Source: Aquincola sp. (GTDB lineage: Bacteria; Pseudomonadota; Gammaproteobacteria; Burkholderiales; Burkholderiaceae_C). From it: DNA of 64,000 nt. The stretch lies in contig JALHQP010000003.1 in the NCBI GenBank assembly GCA_022841885.1, forward strand, positions 1 through 64,000, given 5' to 3'. Within the stretch, counting starts at the first letter, position 1. Every line of letters starts with the position of its first letter. The notes below the pieces were generated by a model. That model worked only from the letters and a program-made list of their open reading frames with translations, was not told where the DNA came from and ran no database searches. Shown piece by piece: positions 47,385 to 60,738 of the stretch. Made by a program: the position numbers and the translations under genes.

Positions 47385-47786
47385 TCAGGCGGGTCGCTCC
47401 AGGCGGAAGGCCCAACGCTGCAGCATCGGCCGCACGCGCAGGAAGAGCCGGTAGACGCGCTCCATCAGCCAGGCAGCGCCGGGCAGTCGTCCGAACCGGG
47501 CCAGCCAGCGCCAACCTGGCAGCACATCCCACAGCGCCAGGAACGCCTGCGCGCCGCTGAGCAACCGGCCGTCGCTGCCGCGCACGTGAAAGCGCGCCAG
47601 CAGTTGCTGGCGCGTGGTGTCGCCGGGCAAGGGCGACGCGGGGTCGCTCACATCGGCAAAACACACCGGCGTGTCCGGCCGCAGGCCGCGGTAGATGCCG
47701 ATCTCACGCCGGCACAGAGGGCAGGCACCGTCGTACAGCACGGTGAGCGGGGCTGCCGGAGCGGCGGGTTCGGGAGCGTTCACCAT
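47385..47786 (-). CDS. DCC-family thiol-disulfide oxidoreductase-like protein (DUF393)
   Basis: A 133-residue protein with the defining motif LYDGACPLCRREI (residues about 15-27), a thioredoxin-like C-x2-C start, followed by FADVSDP and SGAQAFLALWDVLPGWRWL. The function of DCC proteins is not established; a redox role is assumed from the CPLC motif. It overlaps the photolyase-like gene by 7 bp. Confidence 0.88.
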   Translation of the reverse strand: MVNAPEPAAPAAPLTVLYDGACPLCRREIGIYRGLRPDTPVCFADVSDPASPLPGDTTRQQLLARFHVRGSDGRLLSGAQAFLALWDVLPGWRWLARFGRLPGAAWLMERVYRLFLRVRPMLQRWAFRLERPA

Positions 47787-48976
47787 GCAGGGACCTCGTT
47801 GACGGCCAGCAAGTCTGCCGCCGATTGCAGGCCGCGCGAGCTGCGGGCCCACCATTGGGAGAACGAATCGCAGCGCCCAGCCACCGGCGGAAACAACGCC
47901 GGCGCCGCGACGCACTCCGCCCAGCACGCAAGCCACGGCGCGAGGTGCGGTTCGTCGACGCTGCGCACGCGCCGCGCGCCGGCCAGGGCGGCACCGAGGG
48001 TGGCGGCGTCGCCATACCAGCGGTGCGGGGTGAGTGCCGCCATGCGCGCGCCGACGAAGCGCCAGCGCCGCTCGCTCCACGGCCAGGCGCGATGAAACTC
48101 GGCCGCGAACACGCCGAGCACCTGCGTGTCGGGCGGCAGTGCGGGCAGTTCACCCAGGTTCCACGGGTGCACGAGCCACACGTCGCGGCCGTTCACGAGC
48201 GCAGGGTCGGGCGCCGCCGTGTCTACGTCACGCGGCGGGTCGACACGCGGCGGTGGCTCCATCACCTGCGGCTCCTGCGCCGCGCCGGCTGGGGCCGAGG
48301 TCGGTCGACGCGCCAGGCGGTCCAGCGACTCGTAGGACGCGTCGATCACGCTGCCCGGGCTGTGCCACGGGGCCGGCGCGTAGCGGGCCACGTTCTCCGC
48401 GTTGAACAGGTAGGGTTTGTGGCTGGCGGTGCCCGCCACCCATTGCCAGGAGAGGTGGTTGCTCGCCAGGTCGCCGTCGAGCAGATGACCATAGAGCCAG
48501 TCCGCCCCGCAGCGCCAGTGCACCTTGCGCAGGTGCACCACGTAGCTGGCCAGCCACATGCGCGCGTGGTTGTGCATCATGCCGGTGGCATACAGCGCGC
48601 GCACCGCCTCGTCGATGGCCGGCACGCCCGTGCAAGCGTTGCGGATGTCGGTCGGCAGTTCGGTGGCATAGGCGGCGTCGCTCAGCGGACCGTCGTGGAA
48701 AGACCGCAAGATGCCGTCGCCACGCTGCTGCCAGACACGGCGGAAGTACGCGCGCCACCCCAGTTCATAGACGAACTTGTGCTGCACCTCCAGTTCATGG
48801 CGCGCCGCCACGCCGGCCAGCACATCGGCAAGCGATACGAAGCCATGCGTGATGTACGGCGACAGCCCGCTCACCGCGCCGTTGATCGCGTTGCGCGTGC
48901 GTGCATAGGTCGCCGGCCGGAAGGCGGCGATGCGGGCCTGCGCCGCGGCCAGCGTGGGCGGGTAGATCTCACGCAT
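47780..48976 (-). CDS. Photolyase-like flavoprotein with permuted domain order
   Basis: A 398-residue protein. Residues about 30-200 are the FAD-binding helical domain of photolyases and cryptochromes: GLSPYITHGFVSL (37-49), TGMMHNHARMWLASYV (131-146) and DGDLASNHLSWQWVAGTAS (167-185). The usual N-terminal alpha/beta antenna domain is absent in front. Instead, after a Pro-rich linker (225-260), the C-terminal 135 residues look alpha/beta (RDVWLVHPWNLGELPALPP; TQVLGVFAAEFHRAWPW). Domain order therefore appears swapped. It should bind FAD; repair activity is unproven. ATG 48976 overlaps the upstream photolyase stop. GTG 48985 is an alternative. Confidence 0.85.
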   Translation of the reverse strand: MREIYPPTLAAAQARIAAFRPATYARTRNAINGAVSGLSPYITHGFVSLADVLAGVAARHELEVQHKFVYELGWRAYFRRVWQQRGDGILRSFHDGPLSDAAYATELPTDIRNACTGVPAIDEAVRALYATGMMHNHARMWLASYVVHLRKVHWRCGADWLYGHLLDGDLASNHLSWQWVAGTASHKPYLFNAENVARYAPAPWHSPGSVIDASYESLDRLARRPTSAPAGAAQEPQVMEPPPRVDPPRDVDTAAPDPALVNGRDVWLVHPWNLGELPALPPDTQVLGVFAAEFHRAWPWSERRWRFVGARMAALTPHRWYGDAATLGAALAGARRVRSVDEPHLAPWLACWAECVAAPALFPPVAGRCDSFSQWWARSSRGLQSAADLLAVNEVPAW

Positions 48977-50531
48977 GCGCCACACCCACCTCGCCGCGGC
49001 GGATCGCCGACGCGCGCTCGACCACCTCCAGCCGCTGCGTGGCGTTCATGCGCGCCAGGTTCTTCACCTGCAGCGCCATGCGCGGGTTCTTCGCCAGCGT
49101 CGCCTCGTGACGCATCAGGAAGTCCCAGTACAGGGTGGTGAACGGACACGCCGTCTCGCCCGCGCGCAGCGCCGGGTCATAGCGGCAGCCCTTGCAATGC
49201 GGGCTCATGCGCTCGATGTACTTGCCGGTGGCCACATAGGGCTTGCTGCCCATCATGCCGCCGTCGGCGTACTGGCTCATGCCCAGCGAGTTGGGCAGCT
49301 CGACCCATTCCACCGCATCGACGTAGACGGCCAGGTACCAGGCGTGCACCTGCTTCGGCTCCACGCCCAGCATCAGCGCATACAGGCCGGTGACCATCAG
49401 GCGTTGGATGTGGTTGGCATAGCCGTGCGTCAAGGTCTGCTCGATCGCATCGTGCAGGCAGGCCATGTCGGTGGCACCGGTCCAGTACCAGGGCGGCAGG
49501 TCGGCGTGCGCGCCGAGCGTGTTGCGCTCGAGGTAGCCGGGCATCTGGGTCCAGTAGATGCCGCGCACGTATTCGCGCCAGCCGAGGATCTGGCGCACGA
49601 AGCCTTCGACGCTGGACAGCGGCGCCTGGCCCGCGTGATACGCCGCCTCGGCAGCGGCCACCACCTCGCGCGGGTTCAGCAGTTTCAGATTGAGGGCAGC
49701 GGAGATGTGCGAGTGGTACAGCCAGGGGTCGCCCGGCCACATCGCATCCTGGTAGCGGCCGAACAGCGGCAGACGCTGCTGGATGAAGGCATGCAGCGAT
49801 TGCAGCGCCTGCGCGCGCGTCAGCGGCCAGGCGAAGCTGTCGAGGCGGCCGGGATGTTCTGCGAAGCGCTCGTCGACGAGGGCGATCACCTCGCGCGTCA
49901 GCGCATCGGGCTCGAAGGTGCGGCGTGGCGGCACGGCACTCGGGCCTGCCGGGCCGAAAGCCTCCCGGTTGTCGGCATCGAAGTTCCACTGGCCGCCGAG
50001 CGGCGCGTCCGCGTCCTGCGCGTCCATCAACACGCGGTGCCGCTTGCGCTGCTCGCGGTAGAAGTACTCCATGCGCAGCGATTTGCGGCCGCGCGCATGC
50101 GCCGCGAACTCGCGCACGCTGCAGAAGAAGTGGCGGTCCTCGCGGATCTCCAGCGGCAGCTTGCAAGCCTCGGCGACAGCCTTGATCGACTGCAGCACGC
50201 GCCAGTCGCCCGGCGCCGTCATCACCAGTTGCTGCGGCTTCAGGCGCAAGACGTCGGCTTGCAGTTGCGCTGCCAGGCTGCCGCAGTTGCCCGGGGTGTC
50301 CAGGCGCATGTAGTGCAGCGGGCGGCCGGCCGACTGCAGCGCCAGCGCGAAGTGGCGCATCGCGGCCAGGAACAGCGCGATGCGAGGCCGACCCGACCAA
50401 ACGTGCGTCGACTCCTCGGCCACCTCGGCCATCCACACTGCGTCCGTGGCGGCGTCGAAGCTGTCGAAGGCCGCAGCGTCGAGGTCGAGCTGGTCGCCCA
50501 GCACCAGCACCAGGGAACGCAACTCAGCCAC
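48969..50531 (-). CDS. Iron-sulfur photolyase/cryptochrome (FeS-BCP, PhrB/CryB type)
   Basis: A 520-residue photolyase-related protein. The N-terminus (LRSLVLVLGDQLDLDAAAF) is that of the FeS-BCP group, and the C-terminal half holds the FAD domain. Four cysteines at 358, 446, 449 and 462 have spacings 88, 3 and 13, identical to the 4Fe-4S ligands of Agrobacterium PhrB (350, 438, 441, 454). Characterised members repair (6-4) photoproducts or act as blue-light regulators, and bind a lumazine antenna. The start is GTG. It overlaps DUF2256 by 8 bp. Confidence 0.94.
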   Translation of the reverse strand: MAELRSLVLVLGDQLDLDAAAFDSFDAATDAVWMAEVAEESTHVWSGRPRIALFLAAMRHFALALQSAGRPLHYMRLDTPGNCGSLAAQLQADVLRLKPQQLVMTAPGDWRVLQSIKAVAEACKLPLEIREDRHFFCSVREFAAHARGRKSLRMEYFYREQRKRHRVLMDAQDADAPLGGQWNFDADNREAFGPAGPSAVPPRRTFEPDALTREVIALVDERFAEHPGRLDSFAWPLTRAQALQSLHAFIQQRLPLFGRYQDAMWPGDPWLYHSHISAALNLKLLNPREVVAAAEAAYHAGQAPLSSVEGFVRQILGWREYVRGIYWTQMPGYLERNTLGAHADLPPWYWTGATDMACLHDAIEQTLTHGYANHIQRLMVTGLYALMLGVEPKQVHAWYLAVYVDAVEWVELPNSLGMSQYADGGMMGSKPYVATGKYIERMSPHCKGCRYDPALRAGETACPFTTLYWDFLMRHEATLAKNPRMALQVKNLARMNATQRLEVVERASAIRRGEVGVAHA

Positions 50532-50710: not shown

Positions 50711-51019
50711 TCAGGCCTTCTTGGCCCACGCGTTGCACCAGCCCGCCCCGGCCACCTGCTTCGTTCCAAACAGCGGGCAGCCGGCCTGCTTGTCGGTAGG
50801 CTTGCCCTGGTAGAGCGCGCAGTTGGTACAGACCTGGCCTGCCGCGTACTTGGGGTACTTCTTGGTGTCCACGCGCTTGGCGTCGGCCACATAGCCGAGT
50901 GCGACGGCCTGAGGGTCCTTCTCGTCGAGGAGAGATTGCGCATGCGCCAGCGTGCCGGCGGCAACGGTGGAGGAGGCCACGGTCATCAGGAACACGCGGC
51001 GCTGCATCGGTCGGGTCAT
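50711..51019 (-). CDS. High-potential iron-sulfur protein (HiPIP)
   Basis: A 102-residue periplasmic electron carrier. A twin-arginine signal (MQRRVFLMTVASSTVAAGT, cleavage near AHA-QS) is followed by the 4Fe-4S cysteines C64, C67, C81 and C95 (VCTNCALYQGK; GCPLFGTK; GAGWCNAW). The signal fits a cluster inserted before export. It lies between the flavoprotein gene and DUF2256 in the light operon and has a good ribosome-binding site (AAGGAGC). Confidence 0.94.
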   Translation of the reverse strand: MTRPMQRRVFLMTVASSTVAAGTLAHAQSLLDEKDPQAVALGYVADAKRVDTKKYPKYAAGQVCTNCALYQGKPTDKQAGCPLFGTKQVAGAGWCNAWAKKA

Positions 51020-51072
51020 GGGAAGCTCCTTGAAAGAAGTGGACGGAAGAAGCCAGAGGGCAGCGCGACCCT

Positions 51073-52164
51073 TCAGGCGGCGCGCGGCAGGGGAAGGTCT
51101 GCGAAGGGGGACTCGGCTGGCGTCGTGGCGCGCGCCAAGTCGGGTCGCATGGCGTTCCGCAAGGCCTGCGCGGATTGCCAGGCGCCTTCGACGCCGGTGC
51201 TGCCGAAGAAGTCGCCGCAGACTCCGAGGCCGCGGGCTCCGTCCCACCAGCATCGCGGCGTCGGCAAGGCGCCCGACGGCAGCGGCATCGCGTAGCGCCA
51301 GCGATGCACGACGGCATGCTGCCACTCGATCGGCTCACCGAGCACCTCCTGCAGCGCAGCCTGCATCTGGCGCTGCACCCAGTCGGCCGGATGCTCGAGA
51401 TGTTGCCGGCTCCAGCCGGCGCGTGCGTGCGCCACCCAGTGGGTTTCGTCGCTGGACGACCCGCGCCCGGGTCGGGCGTCATTGCGCATGACCCAGGCCA
51501 GCAGGCCTTGATCGGGCAGGGCGAGATCCCAGCGCAGGTCCGGTACCGTACGGCGCGACACCCCCATCAGCGTCCAGCAGGGCTGCATGAGGGCGAGCGA
51601 CGCACGTTGCGCCCAGTCCCTGCGGAGCGGTGCCAGCAGCGGCGCGGCCTGGGCCGGCGGCAGCGCCAGCACGACCGCGTCGAAGTGCCCGGGCAGCGTC
51701 GAACCGGCCGCCTCGATCCGCCAGCCCAGCGGACCCTGCCGCAGGCGATCGACGGTCGACGACCAGCTCGCGGGAATATCGCGCAGCAACCCGCGGCACA
51801 ACGACGGCATGCCTGGCGTCGGCAAGATCAGCCGACCCGCATCGTCGAGCGGCCGGCTGCCGGGCGCCAGTCGCGGCCTCCATGCCGTCAGGCTCCCCGA
51901 CGGAAGCGCGTCGGCGAGGTACTGCCGGAAGGCGGGGTCCGAGGCCGCGAACGCCGGTGCCCCATGGTCGACCTTGGCGACGCGTCGCTGTCCTTGCGCA
52001 TCCAGCCACTCCAGTCGACGCGTGGCCAGCCGTCCGCCGGCGCCTCGAGCCTTGTCGACGACATGCACCGAGACGCCTGCTGCCGTCAGCGCCCGAGCGC
52101 AGGAAGCCCCGGCGATGCCGGCGCCGATCACGGCGACCTTGAAGTCGGACGGGCTGCGCTTCAT
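51073..52164 (-). CDS. Renalase-like FAD-dependent oxidoreductase 1
   Basis: A 363-residue flavoprotein (369 if ATG 52182 is used). The dinucleotide motif VAVIGAGIAGASCARALTAA and ARGAGGRLATRR are N-terminal; the C-terminal FAD segment is GLGVCGDFFGSTGVEGAW. This is the COG3380 renalase/amine-oxidase-like group with unknown substrate. It is the first gene of the eight-gene light operon and is paralogous to the flavoprotein at 57591-58742. It is divergent from the MerR gene. Confidence 0.88.
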   Translation of the reverse strand: MKRSPSDFKVAVIGAGIAGASCARALTAAGVSVHVVDKARGAGGRLATRRLEWLDAQGQRRVAKVDHGAPAFAASDPAFRQYLADALPSGSLTAWRPRLAPGSRPLDDAGRLILPTPGMPSLCRGLLRDIPASWSSTVDRLRQGPLGWRIEAAGSTLPGHFDAVVLALPPAQAAPLLAPLRRDWAQRASLALMQPCWTLMGVSRRTVPDLRWDLALPDQGLLAWVMRNDARPGRGSSSDETHWVAHARAGWSRQHLEHPADWVQRQMQAALQEVLGEPIEWQHAVVHRWRYAMPLPSGALPTPRCWWDGARGLGVCGDFFGSTGVEGAWQSAQALRNAMRPDLARATTPAESPFADLPLPRAA

Positions 52165-52182
52165 GCACTCGAGGATATTCAT

Positions 52183-52263: not shown

Positions 52264-53361
52264 ATGCCCAAGCGAAAGTCGCCAGCCACAGCGTCCCCCG
52301 TCGAGTCCGCCGCGCGACACCGCAGCGGCGCCGTGGCCCGCATGCTGCGCATGCCGGTGGCCACGCTGCGCGTGTGGGAGCGGCGCTATGGCGTGACGCG
52401 GCCGGTGCTGTCGCCCAGCGGGCAGCGCCTGTACTCGGCCGACGATGTGCGGCGCCTGGCCCTGCTCAAGCAGCTCACCGACCTGGGCCATGCGATCGGC
52501 AGCCTGGCCGGGCTGGACATGGCACAGCTCCAGAAGGTGGCGGGCACGCACGCCAGCGTGTTGGCGGCTCGTGCGAACGTGGAACCGTTGCGGGACCCGC
52601 CGTCGGCCACGCAGACCTGGCGCGTGGCGGTCATCGGCAAGGCACTGGGCACGCGCTTGCAACGACCCGCGCTGTTGCGGCGCCTGTCGCGCCCGGTGCA
52701 GTTGCGCGGCCCGTTTGCCGATGCGGTCGAGGCCCACGCGGTCTTGCAGGGCGCCGCGGTCGACCTGCTGGTGGCGCATGAACCGCGGCTGCACGAGGCA
52801 TGGCTGGCCGGCCTGCAAGCCGCTGCACCTTCGCTCGCCGCGCTGCCGAAGGCGGTGCTGTACCGCTACGCCGCCGAGTCGACGTGCACGGCGCTGGGTA
52901 CCGCCGGCACGGCCTTGCTGCGCGAGCCGCAGAACGACACCGTGCTCGGCCAATGGCTGCAAGGCGTGCTGCAGGCCCTGCCGCCGGCTCTTGGCTCGGC
53001 GCGCGACCCGGCGCAGCCGCTGCCTGCGGTACCGCCGCGGCGCTGGGATGACGCCGCGTTGGCCGACTTCGCCGGCCTGTCGTCGACGATCGCCTGCGAG
53101 TGCCCGCGCCATGTCGCCGAGCTGCTGATGCAACTGTCGCACTTCGAGGCCTACAGCGCCGAATGCCGTCACCTCAGCCCGGCCGACGCAGAACTGCATG
53201 CGTACCTGCAGCAGATGGCGGCGACATCGCGCGCGCGCTTCGAGGAAGCGCTGGAGCATGTCGCGTTGCATGAAGGATTGATCCTGCCGCCCTCAACTCC
53301 CGAGCCGTCCGAGCGGATTCAGTACTCGAGCGCCGTCGCCTTGCCTCTGAACACCAGGTAG
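52264..53361 (+). CDS. MerR-family regulator, LitR/CarH-like without cobalamin motif
   Basis: A 365-residue protein. The MerR DNA-binding domain (SGAVARMLRMPVATLRVWER, then YGVTRPVLSPSGQRLYSADD) spans residues 20-90. The rest has the length of a cobalamin-binding photoreceptor, but the E/DxHxxG cobalamin motif is absent. Three cysteines (278, 280, 301) occur in ACECPRHVAELL and SAECRHLS. It resembles the B12-motif-lacking LitR proteins of pseudomonads and Burkholderia, which control cryptochrome/photolyase genes. Its 3' end overlaps the convergent cydB by 43 bp. Confidence 0.87.
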   Translation: MPKRKSPATASPVESAARHRSGAVARMLRMPVATLRVWERRYGVTRPVLSPSGQRLYSADDVRRLALLKQLTDLGHAIGSLAGLDMAQLQKVAGTHASVLAARANVEPLRDPPSATQTWRVAVIGKALGTRLQRPALLRRLSRPVQLRGPFADAVEAHAVLQGAAVDLLVAHEPRLHEAWLAGLQAAAPSLAALPKAVLYRYAAESTCTALGTAGTALLREPQNDTVLGQWLQGVLQALPPALGSARDPAQPLPAVPPRRWDDAALADFAGLSSTIACECPRHVAELLMQLSHFEAYSAECRHLSPADAELHAYLQQMAATSRARFEEALEHVALHEGLILPPSTPEPSERIQYSSAVALPLNTR

Positions 53362-54350
53362 CTGAACACCGTGTAGCCGACGATGACCGGCAGGACCACG
53401 CAGGCGCCGACGAAGATGATCCACAGCGACTCGGTGCCGCTCGCCGCCTGCCAGACCGTCAGCCGGTCGACCACGAGCCACGGGAACAGGCTGTAGGCCA
53501 GACCGTAGAAGGACAGCATCACGATGCCCACCGCGCCCGCGAAGGGCACCCAGTCGCCGTAGGCACTGCCCTGCGCCAGGCGTGTAGGCAGCCGCCGCAA
53601 CGAGCGATCGACGATGAAGAACAGCAGCAGTGTTGCCAGTGGCAGCGGAGCCAGTAGCACCACGTAGGGCAAGCTGAACCAGCGCTCGAAGATGGCAGGG
53701 CTGACGAGCGGTGTTGCCGCCGAGATCGCCGCCACGCCTGCCGCGGTGAGCCCGAGGGACACTTGCCCCCAACGGACCGCCGCGAGTTGCAGGGAGCCTT
53801 GGGTCTTCATGATCAGCCAGCCGGCACCCAGCAGCATGTAGGTGCCGAGCAGGCACACCGCGATCAGGGCCGAGAACAGCGTGGCCCAGCCATCACTGCG
53901 AAAACCGGTCACCCACTGACCGAGCATGTAGCCCTGCGCCAGGCTGGTCAGCACCGACCCGGCGTTGAAAGCCCGGTTCCACAATGCCTTGCGGTCGGCA
54001 CCCGCCTTGGTGCGGAAGTCGAATGCCACGCCGCGCAGCGTCAGACCCACCAGCATCAGTGCCACCGGCAGGTACAGCGCACCCAGGATCAGCCCGTGCG
54101 CCGGCGGAAAGGCAACCAACAGGATGCCCACGCCCAGCACGAGCCAGGTCTCGTTCGCGTCCCAGAACGGACCGATCGAGGCGACCATCGTGTCCTTGTC
54201 GCGGTCACCGGCGGCACCCAACAAGGTGCCCACGCCCAGGTCGTAGCCGTCGAGGACGACGTAAGCCAGCATCGCCAAACCCATGATGGCGAGAAAGGCC
54301 AACGGCAACCAGCCTCCTGGCGCCGCCAGTGCGGCTTCGATTTCGTTCAT
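53319..54350 (-). CDS. Cytochrome bd quinol oxidase subunit II (CioB type)
   Basis: A 343-residue polytopic protein of the CydB family. LAMLAYVVLDGYDLGVGTL and WDANETWLVLGVGILLVAFP are diagnostic; about eight helices follow. It pairs with CydA as a two-subunit quinol oxidase in the inner membrane. The start overlaps the cydA stop (ATGA). No cydX-like small frame is visible downstream, where the MerR gene overlaps it. Confidence 0.95.
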   Translation of the reverse strand: MNEIEAALAAPGGWLPLAFLAIMGLAMLAYVVLDGYDLGVGTLLGAAGDRDKDTMVASIGPFWDANETWLVLGVGILLVAFPPAHGLILGALYLPVALMLVGLTLRGVAFDFRTKAGADRKALWNRAFNAGSVLTSLAQGYMLGQWVTGFRSDGWATLFSALIAVCLLGTYMLLGAGWLIMKTQGSLQLAAVRWGQVSLGLTAAGVAAISAATPLVSPAIFERWFSLPYVVLLAPLPLATLLLFFIVDRSLRRLPTRLAQGSAYGDWVPFAGAVGIVMLSFYGLAYSLFPWLVVDRLTVWQAASGTESLWIIFVGACVVLPVIVGYTVFSYLVFRGKATALEY

Positions 54351-55741
54351 GCGGCGCCAGCACGCATGCGCCCAAGTGCTGGCAGCGGCCCAGTGGCCGA
54401 ACGCGACGTCTCCGCGGCATTGACCTTGCGCGCGAGCCGGAAGACCGTCGCGACATAGGCCACTGTCAGCGCGAGGTACATGGCGACGTAGATCGCCAGC
54501 GTCAGCGCAATCGTGGGTGCCGGCACCGGCCCGGCGGCTTGGGCCGTGGTGAGCACGCCATGGACCAGCCACGGTTGACGGCCCACTTCAGTCGTGTACC
54601 AGCCAGCGAGCACGGCCAACCAGCCCGAGAACGTCATCGCGAGCAAGGCCGCCGTCAGCAGCGGCGATGGCCCAGGGCGGCTGTTCGAGCGCAATTGCCA
54701 CCATCCGATCCAGCTGACGGCCAGCATCAGCACTCCGATGCCGACCATCAGGCGAAAGCTGAAAAACACCGGTGCCACGGGCGGGTGCTGGCCTTCATAC
54801 GCGTCCAGCCCCTTCACCTCCCCGTCGAGCTCGTGCGTCAGCACCAGCGAGGCGAGCTTGGGCAGTTCGATCGCAAAACGGGTCTCGCGCGCCGCTTCAT
54901 CGGGCAGGCCGAACACGGTCATCGGCGCACCTTTCTGGGTCCGCCAGATGCCTTCCATGGCGGCCACCTTGGCCGGCTGGTGCTGCAGGGTGTTCAAGCC
55001 ATGCAGGTCGCCGACCACGATCTGCAGCGGGATCAGCAGTGCCGCCACCGCCACGCCAGTGCGCATCGTCAGCTTGACATCGTCACCCCGGTCACCCTGC
55101 CGCCAGCGGTAGGCGCTGATGCCGGCCACGAGGAACGCCACTGTGAGCCCCGAGGCGATCATCATGTGCGACAGCCGGTAGGGCAGCGACGGGTTGAAGA
55201 TGATGGCCCACCAGTCGGTGGCATGCGCCACGCCGTCGCGCAACTCGAAACCGGCTGGCGTGTGCATCCACGAGTTGAGCACCAGGATCCAGAACGCCGA
55301 CAGGGTGGTGCCGCCCGCGACGAGCACCGTGGCCAGCGTGTGCACGCGGTTGCCGACGCGGCGGTGCCCGTAGAGCATGATGCCGAGGAACGTGGCCTCG
55401 AGGAAGAAGGCCGTCAGCACTTCATAGGCCAGCAACGGGCCGGCGATGTTGCCGACCGCCTGCATGAAGCCTGGCCAGTTGGTGCCGAACTGGAAGCTCA
55501 TCGTGATGCCGCTGACCACGCCGAGCGCGAAGGTCAGTGCGAACACCTTGACCCACAGGTGATAGGCCCGCAACCATGGGGTGTCGGCGGTGAAGGGCAG
55601 CCCGTGGCGGCGAGCCCACCGGTTGTGCCGCAGCTTGAAGTACAGGAGTGCCCAGCCGAGCGCGATGCTGATCGTCGGGAACAGGATGTGGAAGGTGATG
55701 TTGGACGCGAACTGGACGCGTGCGAGCAGAAGGGGGTCCAC
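54347..55741 (-). CDS. Cytochrome bd quinol oxidase subunit I (CioA type, short Q-loop)
   Basis: A 464-residue subunit carrying the three haems. The haem b595 His is in ASNITFHILFPT near residue 18; GRQPWLVHGVL and the quinol-binding region before it are typical. At 464 residues it is well short of E. coli CydA, matching the short Q-loop, cyanide-insensitive oxidase group. It reduces O2 with ubiquinol without pumping protons. The start is GTG 55741 with AGGACC upstream. A candidate ECF promoter lies 30-58 bp upstream. Confidence 0.94.
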   Translation of the reverse strand: MDPLLLARVQFASNITFHILFPTISIALGWALLYFKLRHNRWARRHGLPFTADTPWLRAYHLWVKVFALTFALGVVSGITMSFQFGTNWPGFMQAVGNIAGPLLAYEVLTAFFLEATFLGIMLYGHRRVGNRVHTLATVLVAGGTTLSAFWILVLNSWMHTPAGFELRDGVAHATDWWAIIFNPSLPYRLSHMMIASGLTVAFLVAGISAYRWRQGDRGDDVKLTMRTGVAVAALLIPLQIVVGDLHGLNTLQHQPAKVAAMEGIWRTQKGAPMTVFGLPDEAARETRFAIELPKLASLVLTHELDGEVKGLDAYEGQHPPVAPVFFSFRLMVGIGVLMLAVSWIGWWQLRSNSRPGPSPLLTAALLAMTFSGWLAVLAGWYTTEVGRQPWLVHGVLTTAQAAGPVPAPTIALTLAIYVAMYLALTVAYVATVFRLARKVNAAETSRSATGPLPALGRMRAGAA

Positions 55742-55769: not shown

Positions 55770-55799
55770 TGATAACGAGATACCGCGGCCGAAGTTGCA
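55770..55799 (-). promoter_or_regulatory. Candidate ECF-sigma promoter of cydAB (site C)
   Basis: On the minus strand TGCAACTTC (55799-55791), a 14-nt spacer ending in C, and GTTATCA (55776-55770). The expected start of transcription is near 55762, giving a leader of about 20 nt. The arrangement is identical to the two sites around the sigma gene. Confidence 0.68.
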
Positions 55800-55975: not shown

Positions 55976-56398
55976 GTGTTGATTCGCCTGATCTACCTGA
56001 GCAGACCCGTCGGCCCGCAGACCGCTGAGCTCACCGATTCGATCCTGCGCAAGGCCCACGCCTGGAACACGCAAAACGACATCACGGGCATGCTCTGCGA
56101 GGGCCAGGGTGTGTACCTGCAGGCGCTGGAAGGGGAGCGCAACAAGGTCACGGGTCTGTACGCGCGCATTCATGCAGACCCGCGCCACAAGGACCTGGAG
56201 CTGCTTCATTGCGAGAGCATCACCGAACGGCGCTACCGGGGATGGTCCATGGCCCGCGTCAGTCTGTCCGACGTGGACCCGCAAACCAAGATCGTCTGGC
56301 CGGAGTTCGATCCCTACTCGGCCAGCGGCGCGCTGGTCATGGCGCGCATCGACGAACTCGTCGCCCGCGGCAGCCCCTTGCAGGCATCACAGTCCTGA
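55976..56398 (+). CDS. BLUF-domain blue-light sensor
   Basis: A 140-residue single-domain BLUF protein. The flavin-site residues Y7, N31, Q49, W90 and M92 have exactly the spacing of AppA (Y21, N45, Q63, W104, M106). Segments are LIRLIYLSR, ITGMLCEGQGVYLQALEG and RYRGWSMARVSL. There is no output domain, so it must signal through a partner; a MerR-type protein is the precedent (E. coli BluF with BluR). The start is GTG 55976, which gives the usual BLUF N-terminus. It is divergent from cydA and convergent with the anti-sigma gene. Confidence 0.95.
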   Translation: MLIRLIYLSRPVGPQTAELTDSILRKAHAWNTQNDITGMLCEGQGVYLQALEGERNKVTGLYARIHADPRHKDLELLHCESITERRYRGWSMARVSLSDVDPQTKIVWPEFDPYSASGALVMARIDELVARGSPLQASQS

Positions 56399-56455: not shown

Positions 56456-56668
56456 TCAGCCTTTGCGCGGTTGGGCTCGGCGCACCGCGGCGAGGATTCG
56501 CAGCGTGTAGCCCGCGTCCAGTGAGCGGAGCCCGGCCAGACCGTCGCGAATCAGCTGCTGCGCCGAGACTTCGTCGCGCAGAGCCGCGTCGTGCTTCAGG
56601 CGCTCGAGCAGCGTCGTCAGCTCGGCTTGAGTCAGCTCGCCGTCCAGCAGGCGTGAGGCGTCATTCAT
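56456..56668 (-). CDS. Minimal anti-sigma factor (RseA N-terminal-like)
   Basis: A 70-residue soluble protein (MNDASRLLDGELTQAELTTL, then HDAALRDEVSAQQLIRDGL). The LLDGEL-start and the following helices resemble the sigma-binding N-terminal domain of RseA. There is no membrane helix, no zinc-binding HxxxCxxC and no sensor domain. It lies 10 bp after the sigma gene on the same strand. I infer that it binds the sigma factor; how it would sense a signal is unclear. Confidence 0.72.
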   Translation of the reverse strand: MNDASRLLDGELTQAELTTLLERLKHDAALRDEVSAQQLIRDGLAGLRSLDAGYTLRILAAVRRAQPRKG

Positions 56669-56678
56669 GGCATGGTTC

Positions 56679-57281
56679 CTACCAGCGCCTGTCGCGCGTG
56701 GGCGCAAGCAGCGGGCGCACGCGATCGGCGATCGCGTCACGCGCCCGGAAGATGTGGGACTTGACGGTATTCAAGGGCTGCCCGAGCGCCGCCGCGATGG
56801 TCTTGTAGTCCAGCCCATCGACTTCACGCATCAGCAGCGCTCGGCGCTGGGCCTCCGGCAAGGCCGCGACTTCCGTGTCGATGCGTTCGAACAGTTGGTT
56901 GGCCATGGCCTCTTCCTCGGGGCTGGGGGCGGACCCGAATTTCTCGTCCCCGCCGGCATCGTCGAGCCCAGGTATGGGCCGATCGTCTTGCCGGTTCTGC
57001 GCGCTGCGCAGATAGCTCCTGGCCGCATTGCGGGCGATCGTGAACAGCCAGGCCGCGAAGTTGCCATCGGGCCTGTAAGTCGGCAGGGCAAGAAAGGCGC
57101 TCAAGAAAACCTCCTGGGTCAATTCTTCGGTGATCGAGTCGTCGCGCACGAACCGGCCAATCGTTGCGGCGACCCGCCGCTGGTACTTCACCACCAGCAC
57201 TTCGAACGCCACGGTCTCGCCCTGCTGGGCCCGCGCGACCAGCGCCGCGTCGATACCGCCTGCGAGCAGGGGTTCACTCAT
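56679..57281 (-). CDS. ECF (RpoE-like) sigma factor
   Basis: A 200-residue group IV sigma factor. Region 2 covers about residues 25-95 (FEVLVVKYQRRVAATIGRFV; ITEELTQEVFLSAFLALPTY; NFAAWLFTIARNAARSYLR). Region 4 covers 135-190 (LPEAQRRALLMREVDGLDYK; TIAAALGQPLNTVKSHIFRA). The linker is acidic and disordered. A promoter-like motif 95-120 bp upstream matches two others in the island, suggesting autoregulation. Confidence 0.94.
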   Translation of the reverse strand: MSEPLLAGGIDAALVARAQQGETVAFEVLVVKYQRRVAATIGRFVRDDSITEELTQEVFLSAFLALPTYRPDGNFAAWLFTIARNAARSYLRSAQNRQDDRPIPGLDDAGGDEKFGSAPSPEEEAMANQLFERIDTEVAALPEAQRRALLMREVDGLDYKTIAAALGQPLNTVKSHIFRARDAIADRVRPLLAPTRDRRW

Positions 57282-57374: not shown

Positions 57375-57404
57375 CCAGTACGCAGCGGCGACATCAAAGT
57401 TGCA
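57375..57404 (-). promoter_or_regulatory. Candidate ECF-sigma promoter of the sigma gene (site B)
   Basis: On the minus strand TGCAACTTT (57404-57396), a 14-nt spacer ending in C, and GTACTGG (57381-57375). It lies in the 309-bp non-coding stretch (57282-57590) between the sigma gene and the divergent flavoprotein gene and gives a leader of about 85 nt. Confidence 0.65.
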
Positions 57405-57527: not shown

Positions 57528-57557
57528 TGCAACTTTCAAGATGTCTCGGCGTTATGG
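57528..57557 (+). promoter_or_regulatory. Candidate ECF-sigma promoter of the flavoprotein-coq7-ubiG-SOUL operon (site A)
   Basis: TGCAACTTT (57528-57536), a 14-nt spacer ending in C, and GTTATGG (57551-57557). Transcription should start near 57564, about 27 nt before the ATG at 57591; a GGAGGGG Shine-Dalgarno follows. Same geometry as sites B and C. Confidence 0.68.
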
Positions 57558-57590: not shown

Positions 57591-58742
57591 TTGATGACAC
57601 ATCAGTGCAGCATCGATGCGGCCAGTATATGGACCCGCCAGTCCCTGCCGCGCGTGGCGGTCATCGGCGCCGGCTTCGCGGGGCTGAGCTGTGCCCGGGC
57701 GTTGTCTCAGCGCGGCTGCAACCCCGTTGTCTTCGAGGCCGACGATCGCCTCGGCGGGCGCTGCAGCTCGCGCTCCACCCCCATCGGCGTGTTCGACGAC
57801 GGCGCCCAGTGCATCAACGGCGCCCCCCGCCTGGCCACTCTGGCCGTGCAACGCCCCGGTGAGCTGGTTGCGATGCATCCATGGACCGTGCCGGCGACAC
57901 CCGCCGAAGAGGCGCGCGACCGCAAGGACTGGAAGCTAGAGGTAGACGAAGCGAACGTCGACCGCACCTTGAACCTGATGGGCTCGGTGGGCGTGCCGTC
58001 GATGCAAACGCTGGCCGAGGCCCTGGCAGAGCCACTGGACGTTCGGCTGCGCACGCCCATCCTGCAAGCCCGACGTCGAGGCTCCAACTGGCTTCTGCGG
58101 GGACCCGCTGGGGGGTTCGACGAGGACTTCCAGGCCCTGGTGCTCGCCCTCCCGGCGCCTCAGGCGATGCCGCTCCTGCACGAGTCCGCACCGCTCACGG
58201 ACGCTCTGCGCGCCGTTCGCTTCCGCAGCCGTTGGGTGCTCCTGCTCGGGTCCGAGCGTCCGGTCCCGTTGCCCGGGTACCGGGAGTTCCAGGGCAGTCC
58301 CATCGAAAGGGTCGCTGCCATGCACAGCAAGCCGGGGCGCCCTGGCTTCAGGCCCCAGCGCTGGTTCATCGAGGCCGACGAGCGGTGGTCGCTACAGCAT
58401 GAGCATGACGACGCGGAGACCGTGGCCGATCTGCTGCTCGAGAACTTTTGCGCGCACGCGGGCCGGAAGGTGACTCCCAACTACCTGCGAGCGCACCACT
58501 GGCCTCACGCGTTCGTCGAGAAGCCCGCCACCACGCCCCGGCACTCGCAATGCCTGTGGGACGGCGACGTGCAGCTTGGCGTCTGCGGCGACAGCGTGGT
58601 CACGAGTACGGTCGGCCGCGTTCACGACAGCGGTGTCGCCATGGCACGAGCGGTCGCCGAGGGCCTGACGTCTCGCCGCCGAAGCATCGTCGCGGCCCCA
58701 CTCGACAGGAGCCGAAGCCCGCAGCTGGAGCCGCAGCTGTGA
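57591..58742 (+). CDS. Renalase-like FAD-dependent oxidoreductase 2
   Basis: A 383-residue flavoprotein. VAVIGAGFAGLSCARALSQR and DRLGGRCSSRSTPIGVFDDG bind FAD; the C-terminal LGVCGDSVVTSTVGRVHDSG matches the equivalent segment of flavoprotein 1. The substrate is unknown. ATG 57591 follows GGAGGGG; a second ATG lies one codon later. Its end overlaps the coq7-like gene as GTGA. It is the first gene of the ECF-type operon. Confidence 0.88.
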   Translation: MMTHQCSIDAASIWTRQSLPRVAVIGAGFAGLSCARALSQRGCNPVVFEADDRLGGRCSSRSTPIGVFDDGAQCINGAPRLATLAVQRPGELVAMHPWTVPATPAEEARDRKDWKLEVDEANVDRTLNLMGSVGVPSMQTLAEALAEPLDVRLRTPILQARRRGSNWLLRGPAGGFDEDFQALVLALPAPQAMPLLHESAPLTDALRAVRFRSRWVLLLGSERPVPLPGYREFQGSPIERVAAMHSKPGRPGFRPQRWFIEADERWSLQHEHDDAETVADLLLENFCAHAGRKVTPNYLRAHHWPHAFVEKPATTPRHSQCLWDGDVQLGVCGDSVVTSTVGRVHDSGVAMARAVAEGLTSRRRSIVAAPLDRSRSPQLEPQL

Positions 58743-59341
58743 CGGCCGGATCGATCGTCGCGCCCTCGCGAGGTAGCGCCGGTCTCGGCGATTCGAGCCC
58801 GTTGCCGTCGAGGCTGCTATCGGACCTGCGCACCGACCACGCCGGCGAAACCGGCGCCGTGATGATCTACCGCGGCATCCTGGCTGTATCGCGCGACGCG
58901 GCCGTTCGTCGGTTTGCGTCAGGCCATCTCGCGACGGAAGCGGAACATCTCGCCGCGATCGAGCGGCTGCTGACGCCGCGGCGGCGCAGCCGGCTGTTGC
59001 CGCTGTGGCGCGCCGCCGGATGGCTGACCGGCGCGTTGCCGGCGAGGGTCGGGCCGCGCGCGGTGTACGCCACCATCGAGGCCGTCGAGACCTTCGTCGA
59101 TCATCACTACACCGATCAGATCGAGTTCATCGACCGGCTGGACTCGGGCCGCACGCATGCACCCCTGCAGGCGTTGCAGGCGCTTCTGCTGTCGTTGCGT
59201 GGCGACGAAATCGGCCATCGCGACGAGGCCGCCGCGCTCCTCGACTGCCACGCGGGCCCACCGTCCCTCGTGCTGCGTCTTTGGACCCGCGCGATCGGCA
59301 TCGGCTCGCGCGTGGCAGTGCGGATCTGCCGCCGGGTTTGA
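58739..59341 (+). CDS. COQ7-type demethoxyubiquinone hydroxylase
   Basis: A 200-residue membrane-associated di-iron hydroxylase. Ligands fit E37 (DHAGETGAVMIYRG), E67/H70 (ATEAEHLAAIE), E117 (IEAVETFVDHHY) and E157/H160 (RGDEIGHRDEA). It hydroxylates C6 of the quinone ring in the penultimate step of ubiquinone synthesis. The start is GTG, overlapping the flavoprotein stop. UbiG, the next enzyme in the pathway, is encoded 3 bp downstream. Confidence 0.9.
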   Translation: MTAGSIVAPSRGSAGLGDSSPLPSRLLSDLRTDHAGETGAVMIYRGILAVSRDAAVRRFASGHLATEAEHLAAIERLLTPRRRSRLLPLWRAAGWLTGALPARVGPRAVYATIEAVETFVDHHYTDQIEFIDRLDSGRTHAPLQALQALLLSLRGDEIGHRDEAAALLDCHAGPPSLVLRLWTRAIGIGSRVAVRICRRV

Positions 59342-59344
59342 CGC

Positions 59345-60109
59345 ATGACCTCCGACACGGATTCAATGGCACCGACCAGCACCATTCGCAGCGACGAAGT
59401 CGAGCGCTTCAACCGGCTCGCCGCGACCTGGTGGGACCGCACCGGACCGATGCGGCCCTTGCACGTCGTCAACGAACTGCGGCTGGGCCATGTGCTCGAA
59501 CAGATCGCCCGGCGTTTCGGGCGGCCGGCCGGTGCGCTGCAGGGCCTGCGTATCCTCGACGTCGGTTGCGGCGCCGGCCTGATGTGCGAACCGCTGGCGC
59601 AGCGCGGCGCGCAGGTGGTCGGTATCGACGCCGCCGCGAACAACATCGCCGCCGCGCGGCTGCATGCGAACGCCAGTGGTCTGCCCATCGACTATCGCGT
59701 CGGCGAGCCGCAGGCCGCGTTGCACGACGGCGAGTCCTTCGACGTGCTGCTGCTGCTCGAGGTGGTCGAGCATGTCGACGATGTGCCGACCTTCGTGCGC
59801 GACGCGGTGGCCCACCTCGCGCCCGGCGGGCTGCTGCTGGCCTCGACCATCAACCGCACGCTGCGCAGCTACCTGGCCGCGATCGTCGGCGCCGAGGTGG
59901 TCTTCCGGGTGCTGCCCCGGGGCACGCACCGCTGGGCGCAGTTCGTGCGACCCGAAGAACTCGAGCAGGCCGCTGCGGCCTGCGGCCTGGCCCCCGGCGA
60001 GCGTCGCGGCATGGCTTACCTGCCGGCTGTTCACCGCGCGTGGTGGACCCGAAACCTGTCCGTCAACTACATCGCCAGCTTCGCCAAGCCCGGCAACGCC
60101 ACGCCATGA
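59345..60109 (+). CDS. ubiG: Ubiquinone O-methyltransferase UbiG
   Basis: A 254-residue SAM-dependent methyltransferase. FNRLAATWWDRTGPMRPLH at the N-terminus, the SAM motif ILDVGCGAGLMCEPLAQRGA, EVVEHVDDVP, STINRTLRSYLAAIVGAEVV and LPRGTHRWAQFVRPEEL are all UbiG hallmarks. It methylates the hydroxyl that COQ7 introduces, the last step to ubiquinone. It overlaps the SOUL gene by 4 bp. Whether this is the only ubiG copy in the genome cannot be told from the window. Confidence 0.94.
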   Translation: MTSDTDSMAPTSTIRSDEVERFNRLAATWWDRTGPMRPLHVVNELRLGHVLEQIARRFGRPAGALQGLRILDVGCGAGLMCEPLAQRGAQVVGIDAAANNIAAARLHANASGLPIDYRVGEPQAALHDGESFDVLLLLEVVEHVDDVPTFVRDAVAHLAPGGLLLASTINRTLRSYLAAIVGAEVVFRVLPRGTHRWAQFVRPEELEQAAAACGLAPGERRGMAYLPAVHRAWWTRNLSVNYIASFAKPGNATP

Positions 60110-60738
60110 ACCGTAACCTGTCTTCAACTCTGCTGCGCCACCTGCTGTGGCTCACACTTGCCGCCATGCCGCTCGCTGGCCACGCCATCGAAGAGCCCGA
60201 CTACCAGGTCATCCGCCAACTCGACCGCAACGTGGAGCTGCGCCAGTACGCGCCCTATGTTGTGGCCGAGGTGGTGTTGAACGCCAGCGCCGACACGGCG
60301 GGCAACCAGGCCTTTCCGATCCTCGCCGGCTACATCTTCGGCAAGAACAAGGGCGAGCGGAAGTTCGCGATGACCGCGCCGGTGACGCAGAGCGCCGAGC
60401 CCGTGACGATGGCGATGACCGCACCGGTGACGCAGGCCGCCGTGCCGGGCGGCATGCGCGTGCAGTTCGTGCTGCCCAAGGGTGTGACACTCGAGTCCGC
60501 CCCCGAGCCGCTCGACCCCCGTGTGCAATTGCGCCTGGTGCCGGCCAGCCGATGGGCAGCGATTCGCTACTCGGGCACCTGGTCGCAGTCCAACGATGAC
60601 GAGCACCTGGCGCTGCTGAAGGCCACGCTCGACACGGCGGGCGTGGCGACGCAAGGCGGACCGGTGCTGGCGCGCTACAACGCGCCCTACACGCCATGGT
60701 TCCTGCGCCGCAACGAGATCTGGCTGGCTCTGCGCTGA
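60106..60738 (+). CDS. SOUL-family haem-binding protein, exported
   Basis: A 210-residue protein with a Sec signal (LLRHLLWLTLAAMPLAGHA, cleavage near residue 27) and a SOUL domain: EEPDYQVIRQLDRNVELRQY, GYIFGKNKGERKFAMTAPVT and a second MAMTAPVTQ. Family members bind haem or porphyrins. The periplasmic location and the quinone-gene neighbours suggest porphyrin handling under oxidative stress; that is inference. It is the last gene of the operon. Confidence 0.92.
   Translation: MNRNLSSTLLRHLLWLTLAAMPLAGHAIEEPDYQVIRQLDRNVELRQYAPYVVAEVVLNASADTAGNQAFPILAGYIFGKNKGERKFAMTAPVTQSAEPVTMAMTAPVTQAAVPGGMRVQFVLPKGVTLESAPEPLDPRVQLRLVPASRWAAIRYSGTWSQSNDDEHLALLKATLDTAGVATQGGPVLARYNAPYTPWFLRRNEIWLALR

Follow-up and report, generated by a model that had tools for sequence, protein, structure and literature searches.

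Photolyase is among the targets of the RpoE-ChrR/RpoHII singlet-oxygen response of Rhodobacter sphaeroides, which, like the locus reported here, relies on alternative sigma factors. For that species, "quinone pool retention" is listed under the RpoHII regulon in PMC8307010. A quinol oxidase precedent in its singlet-oxygen regulon was not found in the open-access papers searched. In Pseudomonas, class II LitR light clusters, like the locus reported here, combine a regulator with photolyase, CryB, SDR and flavin adenine dinucleotide (FAD)-oxidoreductase neighbours (PMC9758184), and the word "ubiquinone" is absent from the main text of that paper. Among the enzymes themselves, coq7 and other hydroxylases have been surveyed in 67 proteobacterial genomes (PMC5069965), a study in whose relevant passages two ubiL copies come up and a second type of COQ7 does not; PMC11417400 and PMC5241685 are related literature. 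Here we describe an operon in a 64,000-base stretch of DNA of Aquincola sp. (bases 1-64000 of contig C3, hereafter the window), part of the draft genome G000 (4.08 Mb, 240 contigs, 97.5% complete). It encodes a divergent COQ7-family protein, Coq7L, together with a divergent UbiG, UbiG2, and lies directly behind a site of the extracytoplasmic function (ECF) sigma factor type. A description of the Coq7L family or of the operon was not found in the titles and abstract openings of the open-access papers that were searched.

The operon occupies positions 57594-60738 of the forward strand, and its four genes are separated by overlaps or gaps of no more than 4 bases:

57594..58742, + strand: ren2, renalase-like FAD protein (PF01593/PF13450; best PDB match 4zcc, E 3.1e-23)
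58739..59341, + strand: Coq7L, predicted divergent COQ7-family di-iron hydroxylase (PF03232, E 2.4e-37; separate clade, ligands and fold)
59345..60109, + strand: UbiG2, predicted divergent UbiG O-methyltransferase (TIGR01983, 246.7 bits, cut-off 102.95; separate clade)
60106..60738, + strand: SOUL haem-binding-family protein, apparently bearing a signal peptide as read by eye (PF04832, E 2.4e-43)

The flavoprotein more likely starts at the ATG at 57594 than at the TTG at 57591, and its renalase label fits, since the best-matching PDB chain is itself named Renalase. Its stop overlaps the GTG start of coq7L by 4 bp, 3 bp separate the end of coq7L from the start of ubiG2, and the ATG of the SOUL gene overlaps the ubiG2 stop by 4 bp. 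The preliminary description of this DNA, in which a COQ7-type gene adjoins UbiG and is coupled with a renalase-like flavoprotein and a SOUL protein, is thus borne out by the family matches and by these 3-4 bp junctions.

Coq7L is not the sole COQ7 of its genome: a second copy, which the preliminary description had left to be looked for, is present on contig C5 and is of the canonical type (157 bits, against 128.6 for Coq7L). The Coq7L loci discussed below are the best 80 of at least 248 profile relatives in named genomes, relatives which need not all belong to the Coq7L clade. A tree of 93 rows, built by a quick method with no bootstrap from 46 of these 80 loci (our choice), the window, two repeats, 43 other COQ7 sequences and human COQ7, places Coq7L in none of the canonical clades and in a clade of its own (49 rows, SH-aLRT 100), apart from the canonical beta/gamma clade (34 rows, SH-aLRT 100). 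Ten alpha-type and human rows fall between the two and do not form one supported clade. By record title, Coq7L members come from Alpha-, Beta- and Gammaproteobacteria.

The di-iron ligands E37, E67/H70, E117 and E157/H160, aligned to human COQ7, each reach a frequency of 1.00 in those rows of the clade in which the alignment column is occupied; they follow the COQ7 family pattern (E, ExxH, E, ExxH). Coq7L also keeps the counterparts of H148/Y149/Q152 of human COQ7 and much of the alpha/human-type surroundings. Its AlphaFold2 model (pLDDT 90.4) has two Foldseek matches at E <= 0.001, both human COQ7, namely 7sss (E 1.2e-06) and 7ssp, with TM by target of 0.85/0.88, so that ligands, the H148/Y149/Q152 set and the six-helix fold are all shared with human and canonical proteobacterial COQ7. 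Since all di-iron ligands are kept and the model matches human COQ7 best, Coq7L should function as a di-iron hydroxylase that acts on a quinone-like ring. Coq7L differs from canonical COQ7 in forming a separate clade, usually coexisting with another COQ7, often being fused to a DCC domain and being biased towards phototrophs. Against the NF033656 equivalog (cut-off 180) Coq7L scores 40.2 bits and the canonical copy of the same genome 278.3, but an alpha-type COQ7 used as control (L172) also stays below the cut-off at 62.1; the model is therefore non-diagnostic outside the beta/gamma type, and we rejected it as a test of COQ7 function. A third match to the COQ7 model in the draft (contig C113; L003, 1291-1911), below cut-off and alternative-oxidase-like by eye, was set aside.

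UbiG2 resembles UbiG in passing the TIGR01983 equivalog cut-off and in matching the UbiG-type structure 4kdc (E 5.6e-45), and should be an O-methyltransferase of quinone-like rings. In the UbiG tree, the 17 operon-type rows stand apart from 26 canonical rows (support 100/99); when the long-branched and uncertain Magnetovibrio row (L167) is left out, the 16 remaining rows hold at 99/95. Members of the clade are 58-82% identical to the window protein (41% for the uncertain L167), compared with 35-48% for canonical UbiG matches. Another UbiG above the cut-off was not found in the draft genome. In two other genomes (G002 and G003), canonical ubiG is followed by a gene (gph by eye) whose best match in the draft has 30% identity, and since this usual neighbour is also without a close match, the absence of canonical ubiG from the draft is likely an assembly gap. 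The search for a second ubiG copy, also suggested earlier, thus came up empty for the draft, with the usual neighbour missing too. UbiG2 coexists with a canonical-like UbiG in three other genomes (G004, G015 and G079). The UbiG2 of a contig labelled as a Devosia equisanguinis metagenome-assembled genome (MAG; L130) is nested among Burkholderiales sequences, and this contig is probably misbinned.

The same promoter-like motif stands before the operon, the divergent gene of an ECF sigma factor and the quinol oxidase gene cydA:

57528..57552, + strand: ECF-type promoter site TGCAACTT-N14-CGT of the flavoprotein-coq7L-ubiG2-SOUL operon (motif search; aligned with L089 and L060)
57380..57404, - strand: ECF-type site TGCAACTT-N14-CGT upstream of the sigma gene, which would allow autoregulation (motif search and alignment)
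55775..55799, - strand: ECF-type site TGCAACTT-N14-CGT upstream of cydA (motif search and alignment)

The 4.08-Mb draft holds no exact match besides these three; the control pattern, read backwards, has four. With up to one mismatch allowed, the window holds 4 matches where 0.60 would be expected, a count that was reached in none of 100 shuffles. L089, a betaproteobacterial MAG whose genes from cydB to ubiG run in the same order, retains all three sites (two exact, one with a single mismatch), and 7 matches are found there against 2.55 expected if two mismatches are allowed. L060, from the genus of the window, keeps the flavoprotein site, with one mismatch, and has an exact, diverging counterpart of the site upstream of the window's ecf gene, the ecf gene itself falling outside that locus. 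The -35 element TGCAACT is conserved amid diverged sequence in the alignments, as is the -10 CGT of the operon, and the -10 of the sigma gene is weaker. At the level of sequence, a site is thus shared by the sigma gene and its putative targets, and the earlier claim that the operon and the cyd quinol oxidase genes have a motif in common can be upheld and extended to the ecf gene and to L089. The motif is presumably unlike that of the RpoE-ChrR type; the window further differs from that system in having a 70-aa neighbour of the sigma factor in place of ChrR and the coq7L-ubiG2 operon directly behind the sigma site, and from the LitR clusters in that its sites point to an ECF sigma factor. Motifs of the exact type also occur outside Coq7L operons, in 20 of 171 fetched loci (overlapping window loci included), and a dyad search for further shared promoters upstream of Coq7L returned GC-rich, coding-like patterns.

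The distribution of Coq7L follows that of anoxygenic phototrophy, for which the reaction-centre family PF00124 served as marker in tests that are only partly corrected for shared ancestry. Among 148 relatives, the window's own genome excluded, all 12 Coq7L carriers have PF00124, compared with 22 of 148 overall (hypergeometric 4e-12); these carriers are spread over 11 genera and 4 families, and ten phototrophs are without Coq7L. A second sample of 150 genomes was drawn from the family of Roseococcus thiosulfatophilus (G162), in which Coq7L scores at least 220 bits and canonical COQ7 less than 112. Here PF00124 is present in 15 of 16 carriers (G287 being the one without) and scores over the cut-off in 51 of 150 genomes overall, 36 of these 51 being without Coq7L; after removal of the centre genome, which was chosen as a carrier, the comparison is 14/15 against 36/134 (Fisher 6.5e-7). 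Among 50 tested genomes of the Coq7L loci, a non-random set of our choice that overlaps the first sample at least in L137 and L141 and the second in L129 and L152, 38 have PF00124; the proportion is 5/11 where UbiG2 is adjacent and 33/39 otherwise (p 0.014). The separate branch, found mostly in light-harvesting bacteria, suggests a light-stress role for quinone chemistry. A need of reaction centres for the 2-methoxy group of ubiquinone was considered as the cause of Coq7L and discarded, because it is the other methoxy position that Coq7 makes.

A DCC domain is a frequent companion of Coq7L: it precedes Coq7L within one open frame in 28 of the 80 loci, lies on the same strand at up to 1.5 kb in 10 and is divergent in 12; fusion or proximity within 1.5 kb therefore accounts for 50 of 80, while none was seen within that distance in 30, some of which are on short contigs. 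UbiG2 lies directly downstream of Coq7L in 12 loci, and UbiG matches within 8 kb number 14, these 12 plus L167 (upstream, 41%) and L115 (47 bits). We searched 35 carriers of our choice from the 80 for a further COQ7 and found one in 31, three of the matches being partial or weak (G159, G173 and G177); none was found in G151, G152, G158 and G183. The first three of these are Falsiroseomonas/Roseomonas genomes, with Coq7L as their sole COQ7-family match. The query P0002 gave no match in the plasmid collection, and clustering of the neighbours of Coq7L yielded, besides the families reported here, many antisense artefacts and some lineage genes. A 136-aa membrane-protein-like open reading frame (ORF; L090, 10589-10999) recurs near Coq7L in 13 of 80 loci, as a rule about 570 bases past the Coq7L start, and in a Roseococcus MAG an ORF that is phytoene-desaturase-like by eye (L125, 10864-12501) adjoins coq7L.

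Upstream of the operon and divergent from it lie the sigma gene and the gene of the 70-aa protein, followed by a BLUF gene and by cydAB, divergent from the latter and placed by bd-oxidase family matches, and then by a run of further genes:

56679..57281, - strand: ECF sigma factor, RpoE-like (PF04542/PF08281; 1or7_A, E 3e-34)
56456..56668, - strand: small putative anti-sigma protein, 70 aa, adjoining the sigma gene (without Pfam match)
55979..56398, + strand: BLUF blue-light sensor protein (PF04940, E 2.7e-27; Tll0078 1x0p, E 1.6e-20)
54347..55741, - strand: CydA-type quinol oxidase subunit I (PRK15097, 234.2 bits, below the cut-off of 968; start by analogy to L053)
53319..54350, - strand: CydB-type quinol oxidase subunit II (PF02322, E 2.3e-76)
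52264..53361, + strand: MerR-family regulator with CarH/LitR-like DNA-binding domain (PF13411; NF052513, 34.9 bits, below the cut-off of 400)
51073..52182, - strand: second renalase-like FAD protein (PF13450/PF01593)
50711..51025, - strand: high-potential iron-sulfur protein (HiPIP; PF01355, E 1.5e-24)
48969..50531, - strand: photolyase-related protein (PF04244, E 2.6e-76), presumably CryB/PhrB
47780..48985, - strand: photolyase FAD-domain protein (PF03441, E 7.5e-24)
47385..47792, - strand: DCC1-like thiol-disulfide oxidoreductase (PF04134, E 2.7e-24), a homologue of the domain fused to Coq7L in many relatives

The match of the 70-aa protein to the RseA N-domain (1or7_C, E 0.55) is weak and non-significant, the second of five weak matches. 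The BLUF gene is tail-to-tail with the 70-aa gene, an order kept in L089, and it is possible, as a speculation, that BLUF and the 70-aa protein form a light-gated anti-sigma system. In the MerR regulator the helix-turn-helix is the sole domain found at E 0.001, and the B12-binding domain of LitR/CarH was not found. Within 8 kb of Coq7L, MerR occurs in 10 of the 80 loci, a point of likeness to the class II LitR clusters, photolyase FAD-domain proteins in 11, CryB in 6 and HiPIP in 7. In another phototrophic genus (G045; L053, 1-3265), coq7L has cydBA and a regulator that is MarR/GbsR-like by eye as its divergent neighbours; the quinol oxidase-coq7L neighbourhood thus recurs there without the exact ECF motif.

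The simplest reading is that of an isozyme set induced by light or singlet oxygen and co-regulated with a quinol oxidase. We accordingly favour, as roughly an even call, an operon that is the effector arm of a small, dedicated light or photooxidative-stress regulon under the control of the neighbouring ECF sigma factor, with Coq7L and UbiG2 as stress isozymes of the late steps of ubiquinone synthesis. The small 70-aa neighbour would hold the sigma factor, which would transcribe its own gene, the bd-family quinol oxidase genes and the four-gene operon. Coq7L and UbiG2 would then serve late ring hydroxylation and O-methylation of ubiquinone and would maintain a complete quinone pool at times when damage to the housekeeping Coq7 and UbiG, or too little of them, would leave it deficient; oxidation of the quinol would fall to CydAB. 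The light-stress setting is strong, given the BLUF, photolyase-type and MerR proteins nearby and the relatives of Coq7L that track phototrophy; the substrate, the product (ubiquinone), induction by light and the benefit of the two enzymes are inferences. Of the earlier proposal that a stress response pairs ubiquinol supply with its oxidase, the tie of the operon to cydAB and the sigma gene through the ECF-type motif and the light-stress setting stand, while ubiquinone as the product, induced expression and the quenching of singlet oxygen are presumptions. That proposal did not recognise the two proteins as members of divergent paralogue clades. An unlikely variant has a general envelope or oxidative-stress ECF regulon in which the light link is incidental and the quinone genes serve respiration via CydAB under stress: the RpoE-like sigma factor, the motif before cydAB and the failure to find PF00124 in the window genome would suit it, but the BLUF, photolyase-type and MerR proteins close by and the tracking of phototrophy in two samples speak against it. 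It is very improbable that UbiG2, and perhaps Coq7L, are the working housekeeping enzymes of the window genome; the lack of another UbiG above the cut-off in the draft would agree with this, but a canonical COQ7 is present, three genomes hold a canonical-like UbiG besides UbiG2, and the missing neighbour of canonical ubiG is what an assembly gap predicts.

Several observations weigh against plain isozymes under a dedicated regulon. Several near-invariant positions of Coq7L are unlike both canonical types (e.g. H63, T66, P101, T112, F119 and W182), so its substrate may differ. Its long branch apart from the other types, its fusions to DCC and the occurrence of each enzyme without the other likewise weigh against a plain isozyme. 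In 68 of 80 loci, some on short contigs, Coq7L is without UbiG2 directly downstream, and UbiG2 occurs without a Coq7L match in G004 (a 61% complete draft) and G079; COQ7 and UbiG as paired end-steps, proposed earlier, are thus adjacent in the window and in the 12 loci above but are not strict partners. PF00124 was not found in the window genome, itself a carrier (12/13 when it is counted in the first sample), nor in 12 of the 50 tested Coq7L genomes, including three Limnobacter, Polynucleobacter brandtiae, Magnetovibrio and L089. In favour of the regulon, 5 of 80 loci (L089, L091, L092, L098 and L146; 0/80 on the opposite strand) carry the pattern GCAACTT-N13-15-CGT no more than 1.8 kb upstream of Coq7L, but looser forms are hardly or not enriched over the other strand in these loci: of four looser or other ECF patterns tried, two of which had at most one match, AACTT-N13-15-CGT gave 7 against 3 loci, GCAAC-N15-18-CGTW 4 against 3 and GGAAC-N15-18-CGTT 1 against 2. 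The ECF site is therefore a trait of the window's genus and a few relatives and not of Coq7L generally. A tentative alternative to the isozyme reading, which we regard as possible, is a neofunctionalised pair in which Coq7L, with DCC where present, would hydroxylate and UbiG2, where present, would methylate a substrate that is not demethoxyubiquinone, be it another quinone or a phenolic lipid, or would repair photodamaged quinone, with a light-protective product. The branch coexisting with canonical COQ7, the clade-specific residues, the 28 fusions, the occurrence of UbiG2 without Coq7L and the apparent redundancy of a second ubiquinone-only enzyme favour such a change of function, but the di-iron ligands and the H148/Y149/Q152 set are those of human COQ7 and UbiG2 is far over the UbiG equivalog cut-off. 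For the family as a whole, we put forward, at a shade less confidence still, that Coq7L is a phototrophy-linked extra COQ7 lineage which, with DCC and in some lineages UbiG2, would form a light-stress quinone-ring pathway apart from housekeeping ubiquinone synthesis, for repair of photodamaged quinone or for a modified protective quinone, and which would have been carried into light-exposed non-phototrophs under ECF/LitR-type control.

Ubiquinone synthesis is treated as a housekeeping function, and Coq7L is a widespread divergent paralogue of one of its hydroxylases that is distributed in step with photosynthetic reaction centres. Light-stress regulators adjoin it in some genomes, and in many it is fused to a thiol-oxidoreductase domain. 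It opens to direct test how the quinone pool of phototrophs is protected or tailored under light and oxygen.

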